Assembly (NCBI GenBank): GCA_002731275.1
Contig: PCBK01000070.1
Span: 62,001 to 126,000 of the forward strand
DNA from: Deltaproteobacteria bacterium
Lineage (GTDB): Bacteria > Myxococcota_C > UBA6777
Length of the DNA stretch: 64,000 nucleotides
Direction: 5' to 3'
Shown: positions 1,346 to 52,495 of the stretch, in pieces
How the letters are laid out: the number at the start of each line of letters is the position of its first letter
Position numbering within the stretch: the first letter of the stretch is position 1
Notes under the pieces: model-generated
Database searches by the model: none
What the model was told of the DNA's origin: nothing
The model's input: only the letters and a program-made list of their open reading frames with translations
Translations under genes and position numbers: made by a program

Positions 1346-2203
1346 GTGCCTGAATTACCCGAAGTCGAAACTGTCCGTCTGGGCCTTGAGCGGGTCCTTT
1401 TGGGAGAAAAAATAAAGCGCGTCGAGGTCCTGTTAAAGCATTGCTTTCATGGACGTGCGAGCGTGTTAAAAAAGGGCGAAGTGGAATCTCTCACGCGCCG
1501 AGGAAAATTACTTCAGATTCATATGACGAGTGGCTGGTCCATTCTGGTTCATCTTCGGATGACTGGCCAACTGATCTACGTCTCCTCCACGGAAGAACGC
1601 GAGGGAGGAGGGCACCCTGATGATTCACTGATCAACAACCTGCCGAACAAACACACCCGCGTTGTGTTGTCATTGTCGTCGGGAGCGACATTGTACTTCA
1701 ACGATCAGCGTACATTCGGCTCGTTGAAGCTATGGAAAACAGACGCCCTTGATGAAGAACCCTTTTTGGCCAAGTTGGGACCTGAACCTTGGGCCAAAGC
1801 CTTTCACAAGAACTACTTAGGTGACATCCTCGCGAGGCGCAAGAGGTCGACGATCAAAGGGGTCCTGTTGGACCAAGAGGTCGTCGCCGGGCTCGGAAAT
1901 ATCTACGTCGATGAGGCACTGTTTCTCGCGGGAGTCCGACCAAGTCGAAAGGCTGGTGATGTCAAAAAGCGCGAACTCTCGAAGCTGATGAAGACCATCG
2001 TCGAAGTGCTTGAGCGTGGGATCGAGTACGGAGGTGTCTCAGCCCGCGATTATGTCAACGCCGAGGGACTCAAAGGTAAGATGCAGGAACAGCTCTATGT
2101 GTATCGCCGCGAAGGGCAACTTTGCAAACAATGTGAGTCTTTGATCGAGAAGACAAAGGTCGCTGGGCGGGGAACACACTACTGTCCTGGGTGTCAGAAG
2201 TAA
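1346..2203 (+). CDS. mutM: Formamidopyrimidine-DNA glycosylase MutM (Fpg)
   Basis: Base-excision repair glycosylase/AP lyase that removes 8-oxoguanine and formamidopyrimidines. The protein begins with the diagnostic MPELPEVE, whose Pro (after Met removal) and following Glu are the catalytic residues, and ends with the four-cysteine zinc finger (CKQC...CPGC) that inserts into DNA. The start codon is GTG at 1346, preceded by AAAGGAGAT. An insertion around residues 85-105 (STEEREGGGHPDDS) is longer than in the E. coli enzyme. It converges on prkA with a 12 nt gap and no obvious terminator. Confidence 0.96.
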   Translation: MPELPEVETVRLGLERVLLGEKIKRVEVLLKHCFHGRASVLKKGEVESLTRRGKLLQIHMTSGWSILVHLRMTGQLIYVSSTEEREGGGHPDDSLINNLPNKHTRVVLSLSSGATLYFNDQRTFGSLKLWKTDALDEEPFLAKLGPEPWAKAFHKNYLGDILARRKRSTIKGVLLDQEVVAGLGNIYVDEALFLAGVRPSRKAGDVKKRELSKLMKTIVEVLERGIEYGGVSARDYVNAEGLKGKMQEQLYVYRREGQLCKQCESLIEKTKVAGRGTHYCPGCQK

Positions 2204-2215
2204 CGTGGGGGAGAA

Positions 2216-4492
2216 TCAACTCTCGTCGTCGTCATTTGCTTCGTTGCTCTCTTCTTCGACGTAACGTCGACTTGAGAGCAACGCAATCAGCTCGCGGATG
2301 TCGCTCTTCTCGTAGCCAAAATCACTTTCGAGCCGTGCGATGGTCGCGCTGGCGTCTTGTTGTTCGTTCTCGTTGAGGCTTTGTTTGCCATCGACGAGGA
2401 GCACGAGGCAATTACGAGCGATACGTTGTAGCCGCTTGCGTTGTTTGGAGAAGAAGTCCTTTTCGAGTTTGTCGATGTACCCGGAAAAGAGTGTCGAAGT
2501 GTCGATCGCAAGTTCGGGGTTGTCGAGTTTGTAAGCTGCGATTTTTCCGATGAGATCTTCGCGAAACTGTTTGGGACTTTCACTTTCTGTGAGCAACACA
2601 CTTTCAATATTGCTCATGAATGTTTCGTCTGGATCTTCTCGTTTGCGAGTGATCGGGTTGTCGATCTTCTCTTTTTGCAAAAAGGCTTTTACATGTTGGA
2701 CGTAGCGATCGAGCAATGAGTGATATTGGTCTACACCAACGAGTCCGGTCGCAGCACGAAACTCTTTGTCGACGATGTCGAGGTGGACATCACGACAAAT
2801 TTCGATGAAGGACTTGGGATCGTAGTATCCGTCTCTGGGTTCGAGCTGGAGGAACCTGTATACGGAGCGGTCTTCGACGAGTGTTTCGAGCTGATCAAAC
2901 AACGCGAAGGGGGAGAGGGTTTTGTACTTGTCGTTTTGTGCTGCGTGTAAAAGGACAGTCCTGATCTCCCGAGGGGATGCGCCAATACGACCTTCGTAAT
3001 GCATGTCATTTCGGCTCTCGTTGATGATCACGTCGAGTCTCTGGCGGATCTTCTTGGACTGTTCAGCCGAGAAGCGCTGTGGGATCTCGCTGTGGTCGTA
3101 AAGGAGAGCTTTTTCAAGAGGCGTGAATGTGTCGAGGTGGCCACCGATCTCTTCGGGGAGTCTTTTGGCGTTGGGTTTTTTGATCCGCGTGAGGACAGCC
3201 CACAACGCCGCAAGCTCTGTGACGTGAGGTGTGATCGGTTTGGGGATGCTGCTCTCTGCGAGTTGTTTGTCGTAAATGGACTGTTCAGTCGAGTACTGCA
3301 AGAGATAAGGAACGCGAAACAGTTCGATGCGGCTTTTGAAAGAGGTGAACTCGGAGATCTCTTTAAATTGATCGAGATTTTGTTCGTTTGCGTTGCCGAT
3401 CAAGAGGAGGTCAAGGAAGAGGATGACGGGGGTGACGTGCACATGACCCGTTTCACAAGTCCCGAGTAGATATTTGAAGGCTTCGATGGGGCGCTTGAGA
3501 AGGTCGCTGTATTCGATGACCCCACGGTTTGCGTCGACAAGAGGCCCCATCGGTTCAAAGAGGCTGAGGTTGTTGAGCGGTTTGGGGAGCGCCGCGAGTG
3601 AGTGGTCTGCGGTGACTTGTCTGACACCTGCATCGACGTGCATTTGCGGCTCGATGGTCGCGATGCTGCGTCTGTATCTGTAGGACATGTAGAATCGTTC
3701 GACTTGGATGTGTCGTAAGACGTTTGCGTAGTTACCGCCGTAGTGTGCGAGGAGGGTGTCGAAGATCAGTCTGTTGCGGGGGCTGAGATCTCCTGTGCGG
3801 AGGTATTGGCTGAGGGGGTAGTGTTTGGGGAGGCGCTTTTCCTCGTAGAGACGATCAAAGAGCGCGCTTCTTTCGGTGAGTGGGAGGAGTAAAAGGGGGT
3901 GATCTTTAAGTGGGCTGGTGATACGAGCTTCGATCTGGTCCCCTTCGAGATGTGCGTAAGAGGGGAGGTCTTCGACGTGTTTGTCGTCTTGGGAGAACCC
4001 GATTCCAGAGCCCTTGATTTTTTTCTCAGCAGGGAAGATCCAGTTGAATTTGTAAACCGCTCCATCGGGGGTTGCCGAGTATCGCTCCAGCGCGTCGTAG
4101 ATCGCATGGATGAGGGAGCTTTTTCCTGAGCCATTGGGGCCGTGAAGTAACATCAGGCGGGTGACGCGACCTTCTCGGACAAAGTTTCCGAGCATTCGGT
4201 ACAAGGCATTTTGGGCCTCTTCTTGTCCTGCGACCCAAGTGTTTTGTACGTCTGTTTCGTCAACGCCATCGAAGATTTTGAAGCGTGTTAACTCTTTTCC
4301 ATTGACGTTGACTTTATAGGTGCCAAAGGCGTTGAATGTATCTTGGACGTACTGCGCGGTGCTACGGCAGTATTTGGGGGCATCCTGATGTAAGTTGTCG
4401 AGAAACTCGCTATATGAGAGGATGCTTCTGGCACCTTCAAATCTCTTTTTAACAGATTTGGTGATATCTAGGAGGTACTCCTGATTGGACAT
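2216..4492 (-). CDS. prkA: PrkA-type serine protein kinase (AAA+ domain)
   Basis: Member of the PrkA/YeaG family, proteins with an AAA+ module and a C-terminal region with remote kinase similarity, implicated in stress and stationary-phase physiology. Walker A GPNGSGKSS is at residues 118-126, followed by the family-typical long insertion and the LFLDLL/LLIGNANE region around 350. At 758 residues it is about 110 longer than E. coli YeaG, the extra being mostly in an acidic Asp/Glu-rich C-terminus. AAGAGGAAG precedes the start. The usual partners (YeaH/DUF444, SpoVR) are not adjacent; upstream on the same strand is the tandem-repeat/HEAT gene. Confidence 0.9.
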   Translation of the reverse strand: MSNQEYLLDITKSVKKRFEGARSILSYSEFLDNLHQDAPKYCRSTAQYVQDTFNAFGTYKVNVNGKELTRFKIFDGVDETDVQNTWVAGQEEAQNALYRMLGNFVREGRVTRLMLLHGPNGSGKSSLIHAIYDALERYSATPDGAVYKFNWIFPAEKKIKGSGIGFSQDDKHVEDLPSYAHLEGDQIEARITSPLKDHPLLLLPLTERSALFDRLYEEKRLPKHYPLSQYLRTGDLSPRNRLIFDTLLAHYGGNYANVLRHIQVERFYMSYRYRRSIATIEPQMHVDAGVRQVTADHSLAALPKPLNNLSLFEPMGPLVDANRGVIEYSDLLKRPIEAFKYLLGTCETGHVHVTPVILFLDLLLIGNANEQNLDQFKEISEFTSFKSRIELFRVPYLLQYSTEQSIYDKQLAESSIPKPITPHVTELAALWAVLTRIKKPNAKRLPEEIGGHLDTFTPLEKALLYDHSEIPQRFSAEQSKKIRQRLDVIINESRNDMHYEGRIGASPREIRTVLLHAAQNDKYKTLSPFALFDQLETLVEDRSVYRFLQLEPRDGYYDPKSFIEICRDVHLDIVDKEFRAATGLVGVDQYHSLLDRYVQHVKAFLQKEKIDNPITRKREDPDETFMSNIESVLLTESESPKQFREDLIGKIAAYKLDNPELAIDTSTLFSGYIDKLEKDFFSKQRKRLQRIARNCLVLLVDGKQSLNENEQQDASATIARLESDFGYEKSDIRELIALLSSRRYVEEESNEANDDDES

Positions 4493-43496: not shown

Positions 43497-43869
43497 GACT
43501 TCTCTTGCAGCGTTGATTTTTTACAACACGAATATGCTGAAGTCCTTTTCGCTCTCTACAGGAGAGGGTGTGTTCTTGCGTGTGTTGTATTCTTTATTCT
43601 TCAATTTGATCATGTTGAGATCGAGAATGTGAACGCATCTAGTTTTGATGTTTATATCCATCATTTATTGTTTGTGGATCGTTTGTTTGAAAAGTTTTTG
43701 TAAATGGTTGCCTGTCTGAATTTTTCGGTGTTTTGATTGTCTTGATATGTTTGGTTTTTGTTGTTCATAGTTGACATTGTTGCGAGGCGTTTTTAGCGTT
43801 TTGTACATCCTGTTCTGTGTTGAATTTTTTATTCATTCTGCATGAAGATGTTTTGGAGGATTGTCGATT
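43497..43869. other. 373-bp intergenic region before the DUF4397 gene
   Basis: A/T-rich, no coding frame. An 8-bp inverted repeat, TACAACAC (43522-43529) and GTGTTGTA (43582-43589), is followed by TTCTTTATTCTTC and may end the RidA/emfourin transcript. TTGACA (43771-43776) with TAGCGT 17 bp further is a weak promoter candidate for the lipoprotein gene. Confidence 0.35.
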
Positions 43870-45939
43870 ATGAACAACAAATATACTCTTTGGAAAAAAC
43901 TGCCGCAGATGTCTTTGTGGGCATTTGTACTGATCGCATCTCTGTTTTTCGCTGCTTGTTCTGGAGGAGAAGGAACTGGAGACGGTGGGACAACACCTGA
44001 TGGAGAAACTGGCGAAAAGGTCTCTCAAAAGGTCGGATACCTTCGTGTCTCTCATATGTCATATGATGCACCTGCTGTTGATATTTCAGTCGATGGGACA
44101 GTCGTCGTCGAAGGTTTGAAGTACGGTGAGTCGTCGGCTTTTCTCGAAGTCCCCATGGGCGAGCGTACTTTGCTCATTACACCTGCCGGGAAGACGGACA
44201 AGCTGTATGAAGACAAAGCGGATGTCTCCGAAGGTGCACGTTTGACCGTCATGGCATATGACAAAGCTGAGTCTTTGAAGGTGAAAGTGCTCAGTGGACC
44301 TGCTGAGCAAATGGCGGACAAAGCGCTTGTGCGTTTTGTGCATGCTTCACCTGATGCACCAAAAGTCGATATCAAAGCAGGTGATCCTGAGAGCACTGCG
44401 ATCTTTGGTGGTGCTTCCTTTGGTGATGTTACTGAATACAAAGCTGTTGATGAAGCCGAGTACGAGTTTGTCGTGACGGCAGCTGGCGATACAAAAGCTG
44501 TGATCTCTTTTGAGAAAGCCAAACTCGAAAAAGGAAAACGCTACACGGTCTTTGCACGTGGTACGTTTGACGCACAAGACAGTGTCGACTTCGGTGTACG
44601 CGTGTTCGTCGACAATGACGAAGGCAAAACGTTCCTCGATCTCAAAGCGAAGACACCTGCGCCTGCAGAGATGTCTAAGGTCCGCGTTTTCCACATGAGC
44701 TACGATGCTCCCAATGTCGATGTCTCTGTCGATGGGAACGTCGCGATCAGCGACCTCGGGTTTGGAATGAGTTCTGGTTATGCTGAGCTGCCTTCTGGTG
44801 AACGTGCTGTGAAGGTGACACCAACAGGAAAGACTGAGCCTGTCGTGATTGACGCCAAGCTCAATCTCGAAGCCAAAAAAGATTACAGTGTCTTCGCCAT
44901 CGGAGCGCTCAAAGATATCAAGCCGCTTGTTGTCGTGGATGAGCGAGCCCCTGCTGCTGGCAAAGCCAAGATCAGACTCGTGCACGCCGCGCCTGATGCG
45001 CCTGCTGTCGATGTCAAAGCCGGTGATCCAACTGCGAGTGCGGCGATTGGCAACATTGCCTTCGGAAAAGCTTCTGACTATATCGAGCTTGATCCTGGCG
45101 AGTATAGCTTCGTTGTCACAGCAGCAGGTGATACAAAGGCGGTCGTGACTTTCGAGAAGGTGAAGCTGGAGGCGGACAAGATTTATACTGCCGTCGCACA
45201 TGGAACACTGGATGGACAGGATTCCTATGACTTTGGTGTACGTGTCTTCGTCGACAACGAAGAAGGAAAAACATTTCTCGATCTCAAAGCGGTGGCTGAG
45301 ACCAAGAAAGTCAGCGTTCGCGTCATCCATACGAGTCACGATGCTCCCAATGTCGATGTCTCTGTCGATGGAAGCGTCGCAATCGGTGACCTTGGGTATG
45401 GAACATCATCTGGTTACGCGATGTTGCCTGTCGGAGAGCGTGTTGTGAAGGTGACCCCAACAGGAAAAACCGAGCCTGTTGTCATCGACGCCAAGCTCAC
45501 CCTCGAAGAAGGCAAAGAGTATACCGTTCTCGCTGTTGGTGAGTTGAGCAGCATTGCACCTGTCGTCGTTGAAGACGAACGTGCCCCAAGCGCTGACAAA
45601 GTGAAGATCCGCTTTGTTCATGCATCTCCTGACGCGCCAGCTGTCGACATTAAAGTCGCTGACCCCGCGTCGAATGCTGTCTTTGCCAATGCAAAGTTTA
45701 AAGACGCGACCAAATACATCGAAGTTGACGAAGGTGAGTATGAGTTCGTTGTGACCGCTGCTGGCGATACAAAAACTGTGATCTCTTTCGACAAGATCAA
45801 GCTGGAAAAAGGCAAGGTCTACACCGTCGTCGCACACGGAACACTCGACGCAAATGACAACTACAATTTCGGTGTACGCGCATTTATCGACAATGGTGAT
45901 GGGAAGACATATGCGGACTTGAACGCCAAGTCCAACTAG
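43870..45939 (+). CDS. Lipoprotein with six DUF4397 domains
   Basis: 689 residues. Lipobox FFAAC, a Gly/Thr-rich tether, then six DUF4397 domains arranged as three alternating A-B pairs: A opens with VRVxHxSxDAPNVDVSVDG, B with VRFVHASPDAPxVDIKxxD and contains EYEFVVTAAGDTK. Each pair is about 207 residues (about 620 bp). DUF4397 is a beta-sandwich domain found in bacterial surface proteins; no enzyme activity is known. The pairs are so alike that they must come from recent tandem duplication. The start follows GGAGGA. Ends shortly before a strong terminator. Confidence 0.9.
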   Translation: MNNKYTLWKKLPQMSLWAFVLIASLFFAACSGGEGTGDGGTTPDGETGEKVSQKVGYLRVSHMSYDAPAVDISVDGTVVVEGLKYGESSAFLEVPMGERTLLITPAGKTDKLYEDKADVSEGARLTVMAYDKAESLKVKVLSGPAEQMADKALVRFVHASPDAPKVDIKAGDPESTAIFGGASFGDVTEYKAVDEAEYEFVVTAAGDTKAVISFEKAKLEKGKRYTVFARGTFDAQDSVDFGVRVFVDNDEGKTFLDLKAKTPAPAEMSKVRVFHMSYDAPNVDVSVDGNVAISDLGFGMSSGYAELPSGERAVKVTPTGKTEPVVIDAKLNLEAKKDYSVFAIGALKDIKPLVVVDERAPAAGKAKIRLVHAAPDAPAVDVKAGDPTASAAIGNIAFGKASDYIELDPGEYSFVVTAAGDTKAVVTFEKVKLEADKIYTAVAHGTLDGQDSYDFGVRVFVDNEEGKTFLDLKAVAETKKVSVRVIHTSHDAPNVDVSVDGSVAIGDLGYGTSSGYAMLPVGERVVKVTPTGKTEPVVIDAKLTLEEGKEYTVLAVGELSSIAPVVVEDERAPSADKVKIRFVHASPDAPAVDIKVADPASNAVFANAKFKDATKYIEVDEGEYEFVVTAAGDTKTVISFDKIKLEKGKVYTVVAHGTLDANDNYNFGVRAFIDNGDGKTYADLNAKSN

Positions 45940-46017: not shown

Positions 46018-46428
46018 TCAGGTGATGAGAGCTTGTAAGCCTTCGTAGATGTGCTCAGGGACACGGACGAGTTTGTTCTCTTTATTGACACAGACGAGCT
46101 CAAGTCGACCGTAGACAAGAAGGCGTTGGTGTTGGCTGTGAACGGCCGACTGATGGAAGACGACGCGGTAGGGACTTTCGAGCAGGATGTCTGTGTTGAT
46201 GTGTAGGATGTCGCCGTGAGAGGCGGGTTCTTTGTATGTGATATCGACTTTATAGACGACAAACCCTACGCCTTGCTCTCTGTATAAATCGACGAGCGCG
46301 TCAACACCAAGCAGGTGCTCTCGTGCGCGTTCAAAGTACTTGAGATAGTTGGCGTGGTAAACTGCGCCTGTAAAGTCAGTGTCTTCGTAGTAGATTTGGA
46401 CATCGAGGGTGTGATGAGGGGAAGACAT
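46018..46428 (-). CDS. YbgC/4-hydroxybenzoyl-CoA-type acyl-CoA thioesterase
   Basis: 136 residues, hot-dog fold. YYEDTDFTGAVYHANYLKYFERAREHLL contains the Tyr/Asp active-site motif (DTDxxGxVYHANYLxYxExAR) typical of the YbgC group. YbgC hydrolyses short acyl-CoAs and often sits with the Tol-Pal genes; here it stands alone. The ATG at 46428 follows GGAGTG. The substrate is not evident. Confidence 0.9.
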   Translation of the reverse strand: MSSPHHTLDVQIYYEDTDFTGAVYHANYLKYFERAREHLLGVDALVDLYREQGVGFVVYKVDITYKEPASHGDILHINTDILLESPYRVVFHQSAVHSQHQRLLVYGRLELVCVNKENKLVRVPEHIYEGLQALIT

Positions 46429-46613
46429 ATACACTCCATCTGCGTGGGGGTCTTGGGTACATTGTGAGGAGTGATATCATGTTGCGCACTGTTTTGGAAG
46501 GGTGTTGGGAGGGGCTGGTTTGATCTTTTTCCCACAGGCTGGTAAGTTTCTGTTGCGATTGGATTGTGTCACCTTCATATCACCCCGAAGAAGAGGGGGA
46601 CAGGAGGATGCTT

Positions 46614-47633
46614 ATGCGGATTTTGGTGACAGGTGCGACCGGTTTTTTGGGTGGCGCTCTTGCACGCCGGCTTCAAGATATGGGTCACGAGGTGACTGGA
46701 CTTGGACGAAATGCTGTCGTCGGTGCCCAACTCGAAGAAGATGGAATCACATTTGTACAGGCTGATCTGGCCGATGCACATGCGATGATGCGCGCATGTC
46801 AAGGACAAGATGTTGTCTTTCACTCCGGTGCAAAGTCCGAACTATGGGGGACGATGCGCGAGTTTTATACTGCCAATGTTGTCGGTACAGAGAATATCGT
46901 CGCTGGGTGTCTGCGCCACCATGTTGAGCGCTTGATCCACGTCTCCACACCGGGCATCTATTTTACTGGCGAAGATCGACTCGATATCCGCGAGTGGGAA
47001 CCGCTCCCCAAAAAGCAAGCGAACGCGTATACCCAAACAAAATTATGGGCCGAAGGTGTTGTTGATCGGGCTGTTCGAGAAGGTTTACCAGCCATCATCC
47101 TTCGACCACGTGGGATCGTTGGGGCTGGTGATACTTCTATCCTTCCACGTGTACTCAAGGCTGCCGACTCCGGACGACTTCGCAAAATTGGTAAAGGCCG
47201 GAACATCGCTGACTTTACACACGTCGAAAACGTAGTTGACGCGCTGCTGTTGTGTCTGGAAGCGCCCAAAGAGACCTTCGGGCAAAAATACAACATTACA
47301 AACGGTGAACCTGTCGTTTTATGGGATATTTTATCGACCTTCTGTGGTTGGATGGGATACACACTACCTCCCGGAAGGGTCCCCTTCTCCATCGCGTGGA
47401 ATATTGCGTACGCGATGGAGTGGAAGAGCAAGCTCGTACAGGCAAAAGAAGAGCCTTTTTTGACACGCTATGGTGTTGGGCTGTTGGCGAAAAGTATGAC
47501 GTTGAATATCCAGGCTGCACGTGAGGAGTTGGGGTACACACCCCGGTACGATTCTTGGGACGCAGCGAGAGACTTTGTCGACTGGTGGCGTGCCCAACAC
47601 ACCATCGCAACGACCGAGAAGGCTGCAGCATGA
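46614..47633 (+). CDS. NAD(P)-dependent epimerase/dehydratase (SDR; OleD/3beta-HSD-like)
   Basis: Extended short-chain dehydrogenase, about 339 residues. MRILVTGATGFLGGALARRL is the NAD(P)-binding start, and YTQTKLWAEG the YxxxK catalytic pair. Other family marks: SKSELWGTM, HVSTPGIY and RPRGIVGAGDTSI, as in 3beta-hydroxysteroid dehydrogenase/OleD-like enzymes. AGGAGG precedes the ATG by six bases. Its stop overlaps the start of the KAS III gene (ATGA), so the two are translationally coupled and probably act in one pathway. Confidence 0.85.
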   Translation: MRILVTGATGFLGGALARRLQDMGHEVTGLGRNAVVGAQLEEDGITFVQADLADAHAMMRACQGQDVVFHSGAKSELWGTMREFYTANVVGTENIVAGCLRHHVERLIHVSTPGIYFTGEDRLDIREWEPLPKKQANAYTQTKLWAEGVVDRAVREGLPAIILRPRGIVGAGDTSILPRVLKAADSGRLRKIGKGRNIADFTHVENVVDALLLCLEAPKETFGQKYNITNGEPVVLWDILSTFCGWMGYTLPPGRVPFSIAWNIAYAMEWKSKLVQAKEEPFLTRYGVGLLAKSMTLNIQAAREELGYTPRYDSWDAARDFVDWWRAQHTIATTEKAAA

Positions 47634-48628
47634 CACAAGTATTTCCTGTCAAGATCTTGGGCATTGGCACAGCGGAACCCCGTCGCATCGTGACAAACGA
47701 TGAGTTAGAGGCGCTATGTGGACTTTCTGAGGGGTGGATTTGGCGCAAGAATGGTGTACGTGAGCGGCGTTGGATCGAAGAGGGCGAGACCAACTCCTCT
47801 CTTGGTGCGGCTGCTTCACTGCAGGCGCTCGACGACGCGGGGCTTCAGTGGGAAGATATCGATCTCATCGTGAACGCTTCTGGAACATCCGAACAGTTCA
47901 TTCCAGATGGTGCTCCTCTGATCCAGCGCGAGCTTGGACTTGGTACGTCTGGTATTCCTTGTATGTCCATCCACACGACATGTTTGAGCTTTCTCTTTGC
48001 CATGCAGGTGTGCACGGGGTTATTGGAGACAGGACTCTATCAACGTATCCTCGTCGTGACCGCTGAGATCAGCTCCGTTGGGATGAATTTTCAGCAACCA
48101 CAGAGCAGTACACTCTTTGGGGATGCTGCGACGGCTGTGATTTTTGGACAGACACCAGAGGGAGAATCCTCTGTGATCGAGGCCATGCGTTTTGAGACGT
48201 ATGGTGAGGGTGCACCTCACACTGAGGTCCGTGGGGGAGGGTGTCGTCGCCACCCAAATGATGAACGCACAACACCTGAGGACAACTTATTCCACATGGA
48301 CGGACCTGCTGTCCTCGGTATGGCCGCGCAGTATGCCGGTCCGTTTTTGGAGCGTTTGCGTCCTGGACTGACGCAGGGCTTAGGGGATGTCGATATCGTC
48401 GTCCCTCACCAAGCGAGTAAGGTCGCGCTCCAGGTTCTCGAACACTTCCATTGGCCGGCGTCGCAGATCATGAAGACACTTGAGACCAGAGGAAATTGTA
48501 TCGCAGCGTCCATTCCGTTAACTTTGATAGAGAGTATCCGCGATGGCAAGCTCAAGCGCGGTCAGCGTTGTCTTGCTGTCGGGACAGGCGCGGGGTTATC
48601 CCTTGGTGGCGTGATGTTTGTGTATTGA
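47630..48628 (+). CDS. 3-oxoacyl-ACP synthase III-like (FabH/OleA family)
   Basis: 333 residues, thiolase fold. The Cys-His-Asn triad is visible: C118 in SIHTTCLSF, H260 in VVPHQAS, N289 in RGNCIAASIP. Such enzymes join two acyl chains or start fatty-acid synthesis. The residues around the Cys and the coupled SDR gene make OleA (non-decarboxylative head-to-head condensation) or a secondary-metabolite KAS III more likely than housekeeping FabH. No ACP or other fab genes are adjacent. Confidence 0.85.
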   Translation: MTQVFPVKILGIGTAEPRRIVTNDELEALCGLSEGWIWRKNGVRERRWIEEGETNSSLGAAASLQALDDAGLQWEDIDLIVNASGTSEQFIPDGAPLIQRELGLGTSGIPCMSIHTTCLSFLFAMQVCTGLLETGLYQRILVVTAEISSVGMNFQQPQSSTLFGDAATAVIFGQTPEGESSVIEAMRFETYGEGAPHTEVRGGGCRRHPNDERTTPEDNLFHMDGPAVLGMAAQYAGPFLERLRPGLTQGLGDVDIVVPHQASKVALQVLEHFHWPASQIMKTLETRGNCIAASIPLTLIESIRDGKLKRGQRCLAVGTGAGLSLGGVMFVY

Positions 48629-48649: not shown

Positions 48650-49024
48650 CTATTGGGTGAGTCGGGGGAGGATGAGCCCGTAAAAGATCTCCTGTTCGTT
48701 TTCGTAACTCCAGCCTAGATGAGTGTGGCACTGTTTGCACACCTCGATCTGCCAAAAAAATCCACGAAACCAACTGAATTCAGCTGAAGGCATGTCTACA
48801 GGTCGTAGCCCAACTGCGTTCCGAAAGCAGCCGATTTGAAACGCAAAGCCTTCGGGGTTCATGAAGTTGTGTACGTGTTTGCCTTCCACTTCGATGCGTT
48901 GGTGTGATGTGGTGATCGTATGTGCGCAGTGTGCGCAACGAATGGTGTGCTCAGGAGTCTCCTCTGAGTGAGTCTTTGGCCGTTCGAGTAGATCGGTCGT
49001 ATTGTTCGGGGAGTTTTTGCTCAT
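48650..49024 (-). CDS. Cereblon-type CULT domain protein
   Basis: 124 residues. The domain fits the CULT fold (cereblon domain that binds thalidomide and similar ligands): C30-x2-C33 and C96-x2-C99 are the zinc-binding cysteines, and W85, W91 and W105 (SWFRGFFW and LGWSYE) are the three Trp of the binding cage. FMNPEGFAFQI and FYGLILPRL also match the cereblon pattern. CULT domains occur in few bacteria (for example Magnetospirillum). An N-terminal Ser/Thr-rich extension of about 27 residues precedes it; no DDB1-binding part. The ATG overlaps the stop of the upstream gene by four bases (ATGA). Ligand and role unknown. Confidence 0.85.
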   Translation of the reverse strand: MSKNSPNNTTDLLERPKTHSEETPEHTIRCAHCAHTITTSHQRIEVEGKHVHNFMNPEGFAFQIGCFRNAVGLRPVDMPSAEFSWFRGFFWQIEVCKQCHTHLGWSYENEQEIFYGLILPRLTQ

Positions 49025-49785: not shown

Positions 49786-50961
49786 TCAAGCCATCTTGAG
49801 GACGATCTTTGCATCGGGAGTTCCGAGGTGCTCTGCGATGTCTTTGGCTTCACGAAGAACCGCCGCTTTGTGAGCGCGTGTGTTCCAACCGGAGAGCAGC
49901 GTGAGCTGGAGCGTGAATGTCTTTTTTGTAGATTTGTGCTTCCAAGTCGCGACAATTCGGCCTCGTGCAAGAACCACAGCGGAGACTCGTGCGGCTTTTC
50001 CCCAGATCTGTTTGCGTTCGTCTTGTTGTGGGACCGCCCAATTTTTGTCAGCGTGCCCCATCAACATCGAGTCATACGACGGGAGTAGGCGGACAGGCCA
50101 CTTCTTTGCGCTCTTTGGGGGGAGCTCGCAGAGTGTCTCGACATCCTCTCGGCATAACCACAAGTCCGAACGTTCACCGCAGCTTACAGAGAGCAAGGCG
50201 TCTTGTTCGTGTAGGCGAGCCATCCACGTCTTGACCTCTTTGATACGGGTGCCAAAAAAGTGTGCGATGTCTTTGATGGTCGCTGGTCCATATGTGCTGA
50301 GATAGCGCTTGGCCAAGGATGCTGCAGCCTCGACTGGATCTGTTTGCGAAGGCCACGCCAGCGAAGGAAGCCAATGTTCGCGGTATGCGTAGGCTTGTTC
50401 GCTACCTTGTTTGAAGACAGTACAGACATCTCCCTTTGCTGAGAGTTGCCAGATCAACCTTCCTGCCGCAAAGTGTGTGGGGGTTTTGTTTGCTTTTTCC
50501 GCAACTGGCGCAACCTTGTCGTGTAGTGTTTGTGAGACGACGTGATAGAGGTCTTTACGTGTGAAGGGGGTATCAAGTGACGCGATATACTCGCGGGCAC
50601 GTTGGAGATCATCTTCATCCGCCATCCCGCCCCGGCGTCCGGAGTAAACCCACTCACTACGTGCGGCGGCGATCAGGGGCCAATCTTGTGCGTCGTACAA
50701 GTGGACGGTGTCACGTTGTCCCCACGTTCGGATGAGTGTTCGCTCTTGCCACAAGGCTGTTTTGAGTGCTTCTGCGGTGGGACGATTGGCTGTGCGTTGA
50801 CTGAGCGCTTTGAGGGCTGGAGCTTCGAGCTGTGCCTGACCGCCGAGGAGGGAGGAGGCTGCAGCTTCAGGAGTCGCTGCACCACGACCTGCGAGCCCTC
50901 CACGTAAGGCTCGGAAATACAAGACCTGTTCTTCTGTGACGTCGAGCTGCTCTGTTGACAT
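49786..50961 (-). CDS. Winged-helix (HTH_42 / AlkZ superfamily) protein
   Basis: 391 residues. The pattern RTWGQRDTVHLYDAQDW and the C-terminal RLLPSYDSMLMGH match the HTH_42 family, which includes AlkZ and AlkX, DNA glycosylases that unhook alkyl-guanine crosslinks. Here the catalytic Gln-x-Gln of AlkZ is not clear: TWGQRD has only one Gln. So it may be a DNA-binding relative. The gene is between the TlpA-like gene (20 nt) and the winged-helix gene (93 nt), all on the minus strand. Confidence 0.75.
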   Translation of the reverse strand: MSTEQLDVTEEQVLYFRALRGGLAGRGAATPEAAASSLLGGQAQLEAPALKALSQRTANRPTAEALKTALWQERTLIRTWGQRDTVHLYDAQDWPLIAAARSEWVYSGRRGGMADEDDLQRAREYIASLDTPFTRKDLYHVVSQTLHDKVAPVAEKANKTPTHFAAGRLIWQLSAKGDVCTVFKQGSEQAYAYREHWLPSLAWPSQTDPVEAAASLAKRYLSTYGPATIKDIAHFFGTRIKEVKTWMARLHEQDALLSVSCGERSDLWLCREDVETLCELPPKSAKKWPVRLLPSYDSMLMGHADKNWAVPQQDERKQIWGKAARVSAVVLARGRIVATWKHKSTKKTFTLQLTLLSGWNTRAHKAAVLREAKDIAEHLGTPDAKIVLKMA

Positions 50962-50981: not shown

Positions 50982-51743
50982 CTATGGAGCTGGTTTAAAC
51001 CATCGGTAGAGGTTGATCCAGACACCTCGCCACCAAAAGCCGATGGGAGATAAGAATCCCGAATCTTTTGAGACGACACGGCCCTTTTGGTCGAGGAAGT
51101 ATGTCGTAGGGAAGCGGTCGATCTTGTATTGACTGCTGATCCTCTGATTTCCGATGAGGACAGGGTAGTTGAGTTGTTTTTCCTTGTAGAGCTGATCGAT
51201 TTTTTTGCGCCGGTGTCCGTCGACAACGACCGTCAAAAACACAGGATCTTTTTTGTAGTAGGGGCTGATCCACTTCATGGTGGGCATGTTCATCTTGCAA
51301 ACAGAGCACCATGTCGTCCAAAAGTGAAGGATGACTCGCTTGCCCTTGAATTGGGAGAGTGTGACACGTTTGCCGTTGATATCGACCAGTGTAAAGTTCG
51401 GTGCCTTTTTTCCGATCGGTAACATCTTGAGGGTTTGGTAGGTCGTAATGCCCAAATAAAGCCCAAGCAAGAGTCCTGCCTGCCAGAGAAAGGAGCGTAC
51501 TTTTTGTCCCCAAGTTCGTTTGACTTCACCTTCTTCATTGGACGAAGTTTTTTCTTCGGATGGAGCCTCTTCTTCGCTCTTTGTTGTCTTGGTATCCTCC
51601 TCTTGTTGGGCTTGTTGGGAGGGTTTGGACTCTTTCTCTTGCTTGGATGGGGTTGCGGGTTCTTCTTTTGTGGTCTCTTTTTTGGGTGAAGTGCTTGTTT
51701 TACGTGAAGGGGGTGTTTTCTTTTTGCGTTTTTTTTTGCCCAT
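50982..51743 (-). CDS. TlpA-like thioredoxin with Lys/Glu-rich cytoplasmic tail
   Basis: 253 residues. Residues 1-78 are a charged Lys/Glu/Ser/Thr-rich tail, 84-101 a transmembrane helix, and the rest a thioredoxin-like domain with WCSVC (C146, C149) and the cis-Pro segment RFPTTYFLD. The topology (basic end inside) puts the thioredoxin domain in the periplasm, as in TlpA/ResA, where it reduces disulfides. The DsbD-like protein at 27.6 kb could supply the electrons. It starts 29 nt after the SMUG1-like gene. Confidence 0.85.
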   Translation of the reverse strand: MGKKKRKKKTPPSRKTSTSPKKETTKEEPATPSKQEKESKPSQQAQQEEDTKTTKSEEEAPSEEKTSSNEEGEVKRTWGQKVRSFLWQAGLLLGLYLGITTYQTLKMLPIGKKAPNFTLVDINGKRVTLSQFKGKRVILHFWTTWCSVCKMNMPTMKWISPYYKKDPVFLTVVVDGHRRKKIDQLYKEKQLNYPVLIGNQRISSQYKIDRFPTTYFLDQKGRVVSKDSGFLSPIGFWWRGVWINLYRWFKPAP

Positions 51744-51772: not shown

Positions 51773-52495
51773 TTAGATCGAGAAGCCTGCTTGCTCCATC
51801 GCGTCTTCAGCTTTGCCAGACCAGTTGTGTTGTGCTTGAGGGCTCGCTGGGCTTGGGTGCAGCACACGCTGAATGGTCACATCCAATCCTTTGAGGGCAT
51901 GACGCGCACGAGACTCGACAAACGCTCCTACCGGGAAAACGTATGTTGGTTTCAGGTATAAGACGGTGTCGCGAAGGGCTTTGTCGCAATGAGGGAAGAG
52001 TTCCTGTTTTTTGGCTTTCGGTAGCTTGTCTGGTGTGCGGTTTCGGCCACTCTCTTCCATGAAGGAGAGCGGGCAATAGCAAGTGACAAAGAAGCGAGAG
52101 AAGAATTGCGTCGGAGTCTCAAAGCGCTCCTTGGCCCAGCCCCACAGGCGAGCGCCGCTGACCTCTTTTCGTTTGCAGTCGAATCCTTCGATGGGTCTCT
52201 TCGGATGCTCAATCGGGGGTTTCTCGATCGTCCCTGAGACACCTAGCCAATCTCTGATCAACGGCACATGGCCAAACGGTACACCTGTCTGTGCCATTCC
52301 CCACGGGCCTGGGTTCATCCCGATCAGGAGGGCCTCTCTTGGTGTTTGTGTGCCGTACATGTCGAGGTAGTTGGCGTGGGCTTCCCAGGTGTACATCACC
52401 GAGTTGTAGACGTGGGTAATGGGCGCGTCAAATGAGATCGTATCGACGGCATCTGCGAGTTCTCGACTGATGTCGATCAGGTTCTTGGTGGACAT
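51773..52495 (-). CDS. SMUG1-type uracil-DNA glycosylase
   Basis: 240 residues. GMNPGPWGMAQTGVPFG (59-75), EHPKRPIEGFDC, EVSGARLWGW and VLHPSPASPQA correspond motif by motif to animal SMUG1. The family removes uracil and 5-hydroxymethyluracil from single- and double-stranded DNA. GMNPGP is the catalytic-water loop and HPSP the DNA-intercalating loop. SMUG1 is mostly eukaryotic; a limited number of bacteria have it. It lies between the MnmC-like methyltransferase and the TlpA-like gene. Confidence 0.92.
   Translation of the reverse strand: MSTKNLIDISRELADAVDTISFDAPITHVYNSVMYTWEAHANYLDMYGTQTPREALLIGMNPGPWGMAQTGVPFGHVPLIRDWLGVSGTIEKPPIEHPKRPIEGFDCKRKEVSGARLWGWAKERFETPTQFFSRFFVTCYCPLSFMEESGRNRTPDKLPKAKKQELFPHCDKALRDTVLYLKPTYVFPVGAFVESRARHALKGLDVTIQRVLHPSPASPQAQHNWSGKAEDAMEQAGFSI

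Follow-up and report, generated by a model that had tools for sequence, protein, structure and literature searches.

A bacterial single-domain CULT protein with a predicted cereblon-type aromatic cage and its gene neighbourhood

The CULT gene and the adjoining genes

The window, a stretch of 64,000 nucleotides from contig PCBK01000070.1 of a Deltaproteobacteria bacterium, contains a short gene on the minus strand that encodes a CULT domain protein. Directly upstream, four further genes are located on the same strand. The features of this region are listed below. The residues are compared with those of MsCI4 (cereblon isoform 4, MGR_0879, of Magnetospirillum gryphiswaldense; PDB 4V2Y and 4V31).

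48650..49024, minus strand: CULT gene, ORF of 124 amino acids with an ATG start
48926..48937, minus strand: first zinc CxxC pair, C30-C33, read off the translation and kept in 74 of 74 aligned sequences
48728..48739, minus strand: second zinc CxxC pair, C96-C99, likewise read off the translation and kept in 74 of 74
48710..48772, minus strand: cage segment W85 to W105 (W85, W91 and W105, then Y107), aligned with W79, W85, W99 and Y101 of MsCI4 (PMC4287342)
49021..49698, minus strand: ORF of 225 amino acids with two weak winged-helix-like matches (ORF and Pfam analysis), candidate co-transcribed partner of the CULT gene
49786..50961, minus strand: AlkZ-like DNA glycosylase (PF06224, 165 bits), 87 bp upstream of the 225-residue ORF
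50982..51743, minus strand: thioredoxin/TlpA-like protein (AhpC-TSA)
51773..52495, minus strand: SMUG1 uracil-DNA glycosylase (E 8.6e-83 to SMUG1 of Geobacter metallireducens)

The CULT domain comprises residues 27 (approximately) to 124 of the protein, and residues 1 to 26 form a tail that was mostly of low confidence in an AlphaFold model. A first-pass annotation had given positions for seven residues, namely the four cysteines of the zinc motifs and the three tryptophans of the cage. The translation has all seven at exactly these positions, and the phrase that had been noted as SWFxGxxW reads SWFRGFFW. The G+C content of the gene is 50.7%, that of the window 51.3%, and the composition therefore gave no signal of a foreign origin.

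The genes for SMUG1, the TlpA-like protein, the AlkZ-like glycosylase, the winged-helix-like protein and the CULT protein follow each other with gaps of 29, 20, 87 and -4 bp. The negative value reflects an ATGA overlap, in which the TGA of the 225-residue ORF shares letters with the ATG of the CULT gene, an arrangement that makes translational coupling of the two likely. No sequence relatives of the 225-residue ORF were found in the PDB, and no homologues were found near other CULT genes. Its single-sequence model had a pLDDT of 45.

Several genes were observed at lower coordinates of the window. A relative of the OleD-like 2-alkyl-3-oxoalkanoate reductases is encoded at 46566-47633 on the plus strand, followed by a FabH-like ketosynthase III gene, also on the plus strand, that extends to 48628. 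A thioesterase-like gene lies nearby on the minus strand (46018-46434), and the region 46018-48628 may represent an olefin or lipid synthesis cluster. A probable lipoprotein of 692 amino acids with six DUF4397 matches is encoded at 43861-45939 on the plus strand.

Family assignment and predicted fold

In a sequence search of the PDB the best match was MsCI4, with an E value of 2.1e-25 and 44% identity. Cereblons followed, with a best E value of 6e-12 and values around 1e-9 for most human cereblon chains, and every match up to an E value of 1 was either cereblon or MsCI4. The sole notable Pfam match was Yippee-Mis18 (PF03226; 22.6 bits, E 1.2e-4), which is below the curated cut-off of 26.6 bits; the further Pfam matches were weaker and of the zinc-ribbon type. 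NCBIfam yielded nothing above a cut-off, and neither the Pfam nor the NCBIfam matches of the protein included a family that bears the name of CULT or cereblon. On the basis of the Pfam match the protein might be an ordinary Yippee/Mis18-type protein or belong to another beta-tent group (MsrB, GFA). Yippee/Mis18 proteins are akin to CULT domains in the beta-tent fold and in the zinc motif (PMC4287342). However, their score stayed under the cut-off while the CULT relatives scored far higher, and the structural comparisons also argued against this assignment, which we consider extremely improbable.

For these comparisons an AlphaFold model was used that had been built from 14 bacterial relatives. 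Its overall pLDDT was 86.8, and most blocks of the CULT domain exceeded 90. Foldseek matched it to thalidomide-bound MsCI4 with an E value of 4.5e-11. With VIA-align the model superposed on MsCI4 chains with a Z score of 19.6 and an rmsd of 0.8 Å over 99 residues (0.8-0.9 Å for ligand-bound MsCI4). Human cereblon ranked after MsCI4, with a Z score of 18.0 and an rmsd of 1.2 Å over 100 residues. The two structures that had been proposed for comparison in the first-pass annotation both matched. From the superposition on the ligand-bound structures and from the aligned residues it follows that W85, W91 and W105 are predicted to form a cage.

Taken together, sequence similarity, two CxxC pairs, three tryptophans with an accompanying aromatic residue, the CULT variant of the beta-tent fold and a protein that consists of CULT only were all found, as in the bacterial CULT family. 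The cereblon-type identity that had been proposed is backed by tests at the levels of sequence, structure and single residues, far beyond chance, and the ORF is a member of the CULT family and not a plain Yippee protein. The two outcomes that had been named as contrary to this identity, a Yippee assignment or three tryptophans without a cage, did not come about, because the PDB and structural searches put MsCI4 and cereblon first and the cage residues align.

MsCI4 has the same single-domain architecture as the protein of the window, and the two are alike in the zinc CxxC pairs, the three cage tryptophans and the tyrosine. They differ in phylum and gene context, in the presence of F89 in place of Y83 of MsCI4 in the alignment, and in the loop past residue 108, which is two residues shorter in the protein of the window. 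The identity to human cereblon is only 28%, and F83 stands at a position that we take to be occupied by a histidine in the human protein. The fold is the same, as are the three cage tryptophans (PMC4287342). Neither the LON domain nor the DDB1-binding region of cereblon is present in the 124 residues, in which residues 27 to 124 are all CULT.

The absence of these parts had been correctly noted before. The surprise implied in that remark was overstated, because a single domain is the norm for bacterial CULT proteins. They were published in 2015, mainly from delta-proteobacteria (PMC4287342), and structures of bacterial single-domain CULT proteins with thalidomide and deoxyuridine have already been solved. 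The gene of the window adds another member, of ordinary architecture, to a family that has already been described. It is via the CULT pocket that thalidomide-type drugs work, as do most clinical protein degraders. The window appears to encode a small, complete bacterial version of this thalidomide-binding pocket of human cereblon, and the protein belongs to a known and fairly widespread bacterial family.

Distribution, conservation and gene partners

A scan of genome contigs revealed 13 CULT loci. A profile search detected CULT in 31 of 377 genomes of Myxococcota (the phylum of locus L011) and in 39 of 395 genomes of Thermodesulfobacteriota (the phylum of L002). The domain had been called rare in bacteria, which is only partly right, as 8-10% of the sampled genomes of these two phyla have it. 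In the phylum of the window one of the five genomes examined contained CULT, namely the genome of the window itself. No match was found in phage records, plasmids and viral contigs. In the literature the single-domain proteins are mainly delta-proteobacterial (PMC4287342); the distribution found here widens this picture and agrees with it. One contig (L004) is labelled Stygiobacter (Ignavibacteriota), its CULT gene and neighbours are near those of Magnetospirillum, and it is probably mis-binned.

The four cysteines, the three tryptophans, N56, F86, G104 and F114 were unchanged in all 74 aligned bacterial CULT sequences, and position 107 was always tyrosine or phenylalanine. These sequences had been gathered with a profile, so that intact motifs are over-represented and the invariance is somewhat overstated. 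A tree of the CULT sequences gave the sequence of the window no firm place. Thirteen putative CULT fusions in long frames were inspected by eye, and none was credible; the extensions looked like arginine-rich or otherwise featureless read-through of G+C-rich DNA.

No conserved partner of the CULT gene was found in 82 neighbourhoods. Neither an all-against-all BLAST within about 5 kb of 74 loci nor a Pfam tally of 129 genes adjoining CULT revealed a partner that recurs in more than a handful of cases. The larger clusters of neighbours were broad families or lineage-specific synteny, e.g., in Magnetospirillum. The lack of a fixed partner, together with a cage that is invariant in some 80 bacterial CULT genes, suggests a general ligand that is common to many cells. 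Single loci pointed to candidate pathways, i.e., the window and locus L095 with AlkZ-like genes, and loci L133 and L134 with LonB-like genes.

L095 is a distant CULT locus from Myxococcota (2006-3717). Its AlkZ-like gene (PF06224, 223 bits) has a likely ATG at 2524 that overlaps the stop codon of CULT by ATGA. It was the only other case of a CULT-AlkZ neighbourhood, and a two-sequence AlkZ-like profile that was run over the 82 CULT loci revealed no further case beyond these two. The probability of one chance AlkZ neighbour among about 80 loci is perhaps 5-15%, a guess that assumes a small number of AlkZ-like genes per genome. As such a neighbour is probably not improbable, we treat the link as a lead, not as a result.

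In L133 (4902-8225) and L134 (4914-7904), the CULT domains of which are 59% identical, CULT is followed by a LonB-like protease gene on the same strand and then by a small conserved ORF. In L129 (4824-6167) an arginyl-tRNA-protein transferase gene (ATE_N/ATE_C) follows the CULT frame directly, with no gap. These neighbours weakly favour a link to proteolysis, as weakly as the AlkZ-like genes favour a link to repair. None of the AlkZ-like and LonB-like adjacencies clearly exceeds chance.

Candidate ligands and pathways

In our reading the protein is a soluble, single-domain relative of MsCI4, with a structural zinc held by the two CxxC pairs. The aromatic cage of W85, W91 and W105, with Y107 at the rim, would accept a five- or six-membered cyclic imide (glutarimide, aspartimide or a uracil ring), and loops would become ordered upon ligand binding. 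The protein has neither a known catalytic residue nor an effector domain, and it is therefore probably a receptor or an adaptor. Soluble reception of cyclic-imide groups is the most likely function. Ligand binding is predicted from the homology to MsCI4 and the identical cage residues. The assignment to CULT, the predicted fold and a receptor mechanism based on the cage, taken as one claim, are very probably correct.

For MsCI4 it has been reported that selective recognition is confined to the glutarimide or uracil ring and that ligand binding folds a third of the domain (PMC4449219). CULT domains are known to bind thalidomide-type drugs, uracil, uridine and deoxyuridine. For MsCI4, binding of uracil and uridine has been published (PMC4287342), and deoxyuridine is present in structure 4V31. 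Human cereblon reads C-terminal cyclic imides that arise when the protein backbone is cleaved or through the action of PCMT1 (PMC11974815). Our first guess for the natural ligand is the cyclic-imide C-terminus of damaged proteins; it is held loosely, with a chance a little short of even. Uracil or uridine is ranked second, as a rather unlikely guess. Two points count against damaged protein ends. The SMUG1 and AlkZ-like neighbours point to DNA repair and not to protein damage, and no bacterial effector of a CULT-bound protein is known to us.

One alternative is a function in proteolysis. In this case CULT would read a damaged C-terminus and pass the protein to a Lon-type protease, as a bacterial counterpart of the pairing of CULT and LON in cereblon. 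The LonB-like gene next downstream in L133 and L134 and the transferase gene in L129 would fit, as would the LON domain of cereblon (PMC4287342). However, there is no Lon-CULT pairing in the window, L133, L134 and L132 form one clade so that the LonB adjacency may be a single event, and three of 82 loci can be chance. Furthermore, the Lon part of cereblon is a LON substrate-binding domain and not a protease. Altogether, a role as a proteolysis adaptor is decidedly unlikely.

The other alternative concerns the ligand and the pathway, not the family. CULT might bind uracil, either free after its release by SMUG1 or within DNA, and, together with the winged-helix-like protein, regulate or recruit the SMUG1 and AlkZ-like glycosylases of the upstream genes. 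The same-strand run from SMUG1 to CULT, the overlap with an AlkZ-like gene in L095 and the uracil, uridine and deoxyuridine ligands of MsCI4 are consistent with this proposal. In contrast, AlkZ-like genes are near CULT in only two of the 82 loci and SMUG1 in one, and among nine CULT genomes of the order of L095 the AlkZ pairing was found in L095 alone. Also the comparison with two relatives (G001 and G002) argued against it. Both have SMUG1 at 53% identity and no CULT, and beside SMUG1 no homologues of the other tested genes of the window were detectable in the stretches fetched. In addition, the two promoter-like matches were at the chance level, and co-transcription of the genes is putative. 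Such a uracil or DNA damage sensor is thus improbable, and the more specific version, a uracil or imide sensor inside a base-excision repair operon of SMUG1, the AlkZ-like glycosylase, a winged-helix regulator and CULT, has a slim chance.

The neighbourhood in the window is intriguing and unproven. If true, a sensor in a repair operon would be the first physiological pathway for a bacterial CULT protein, and it would strengthen a suggestion in the literature, according to which the natural ligand may be uracil that originates from damaged DNA.
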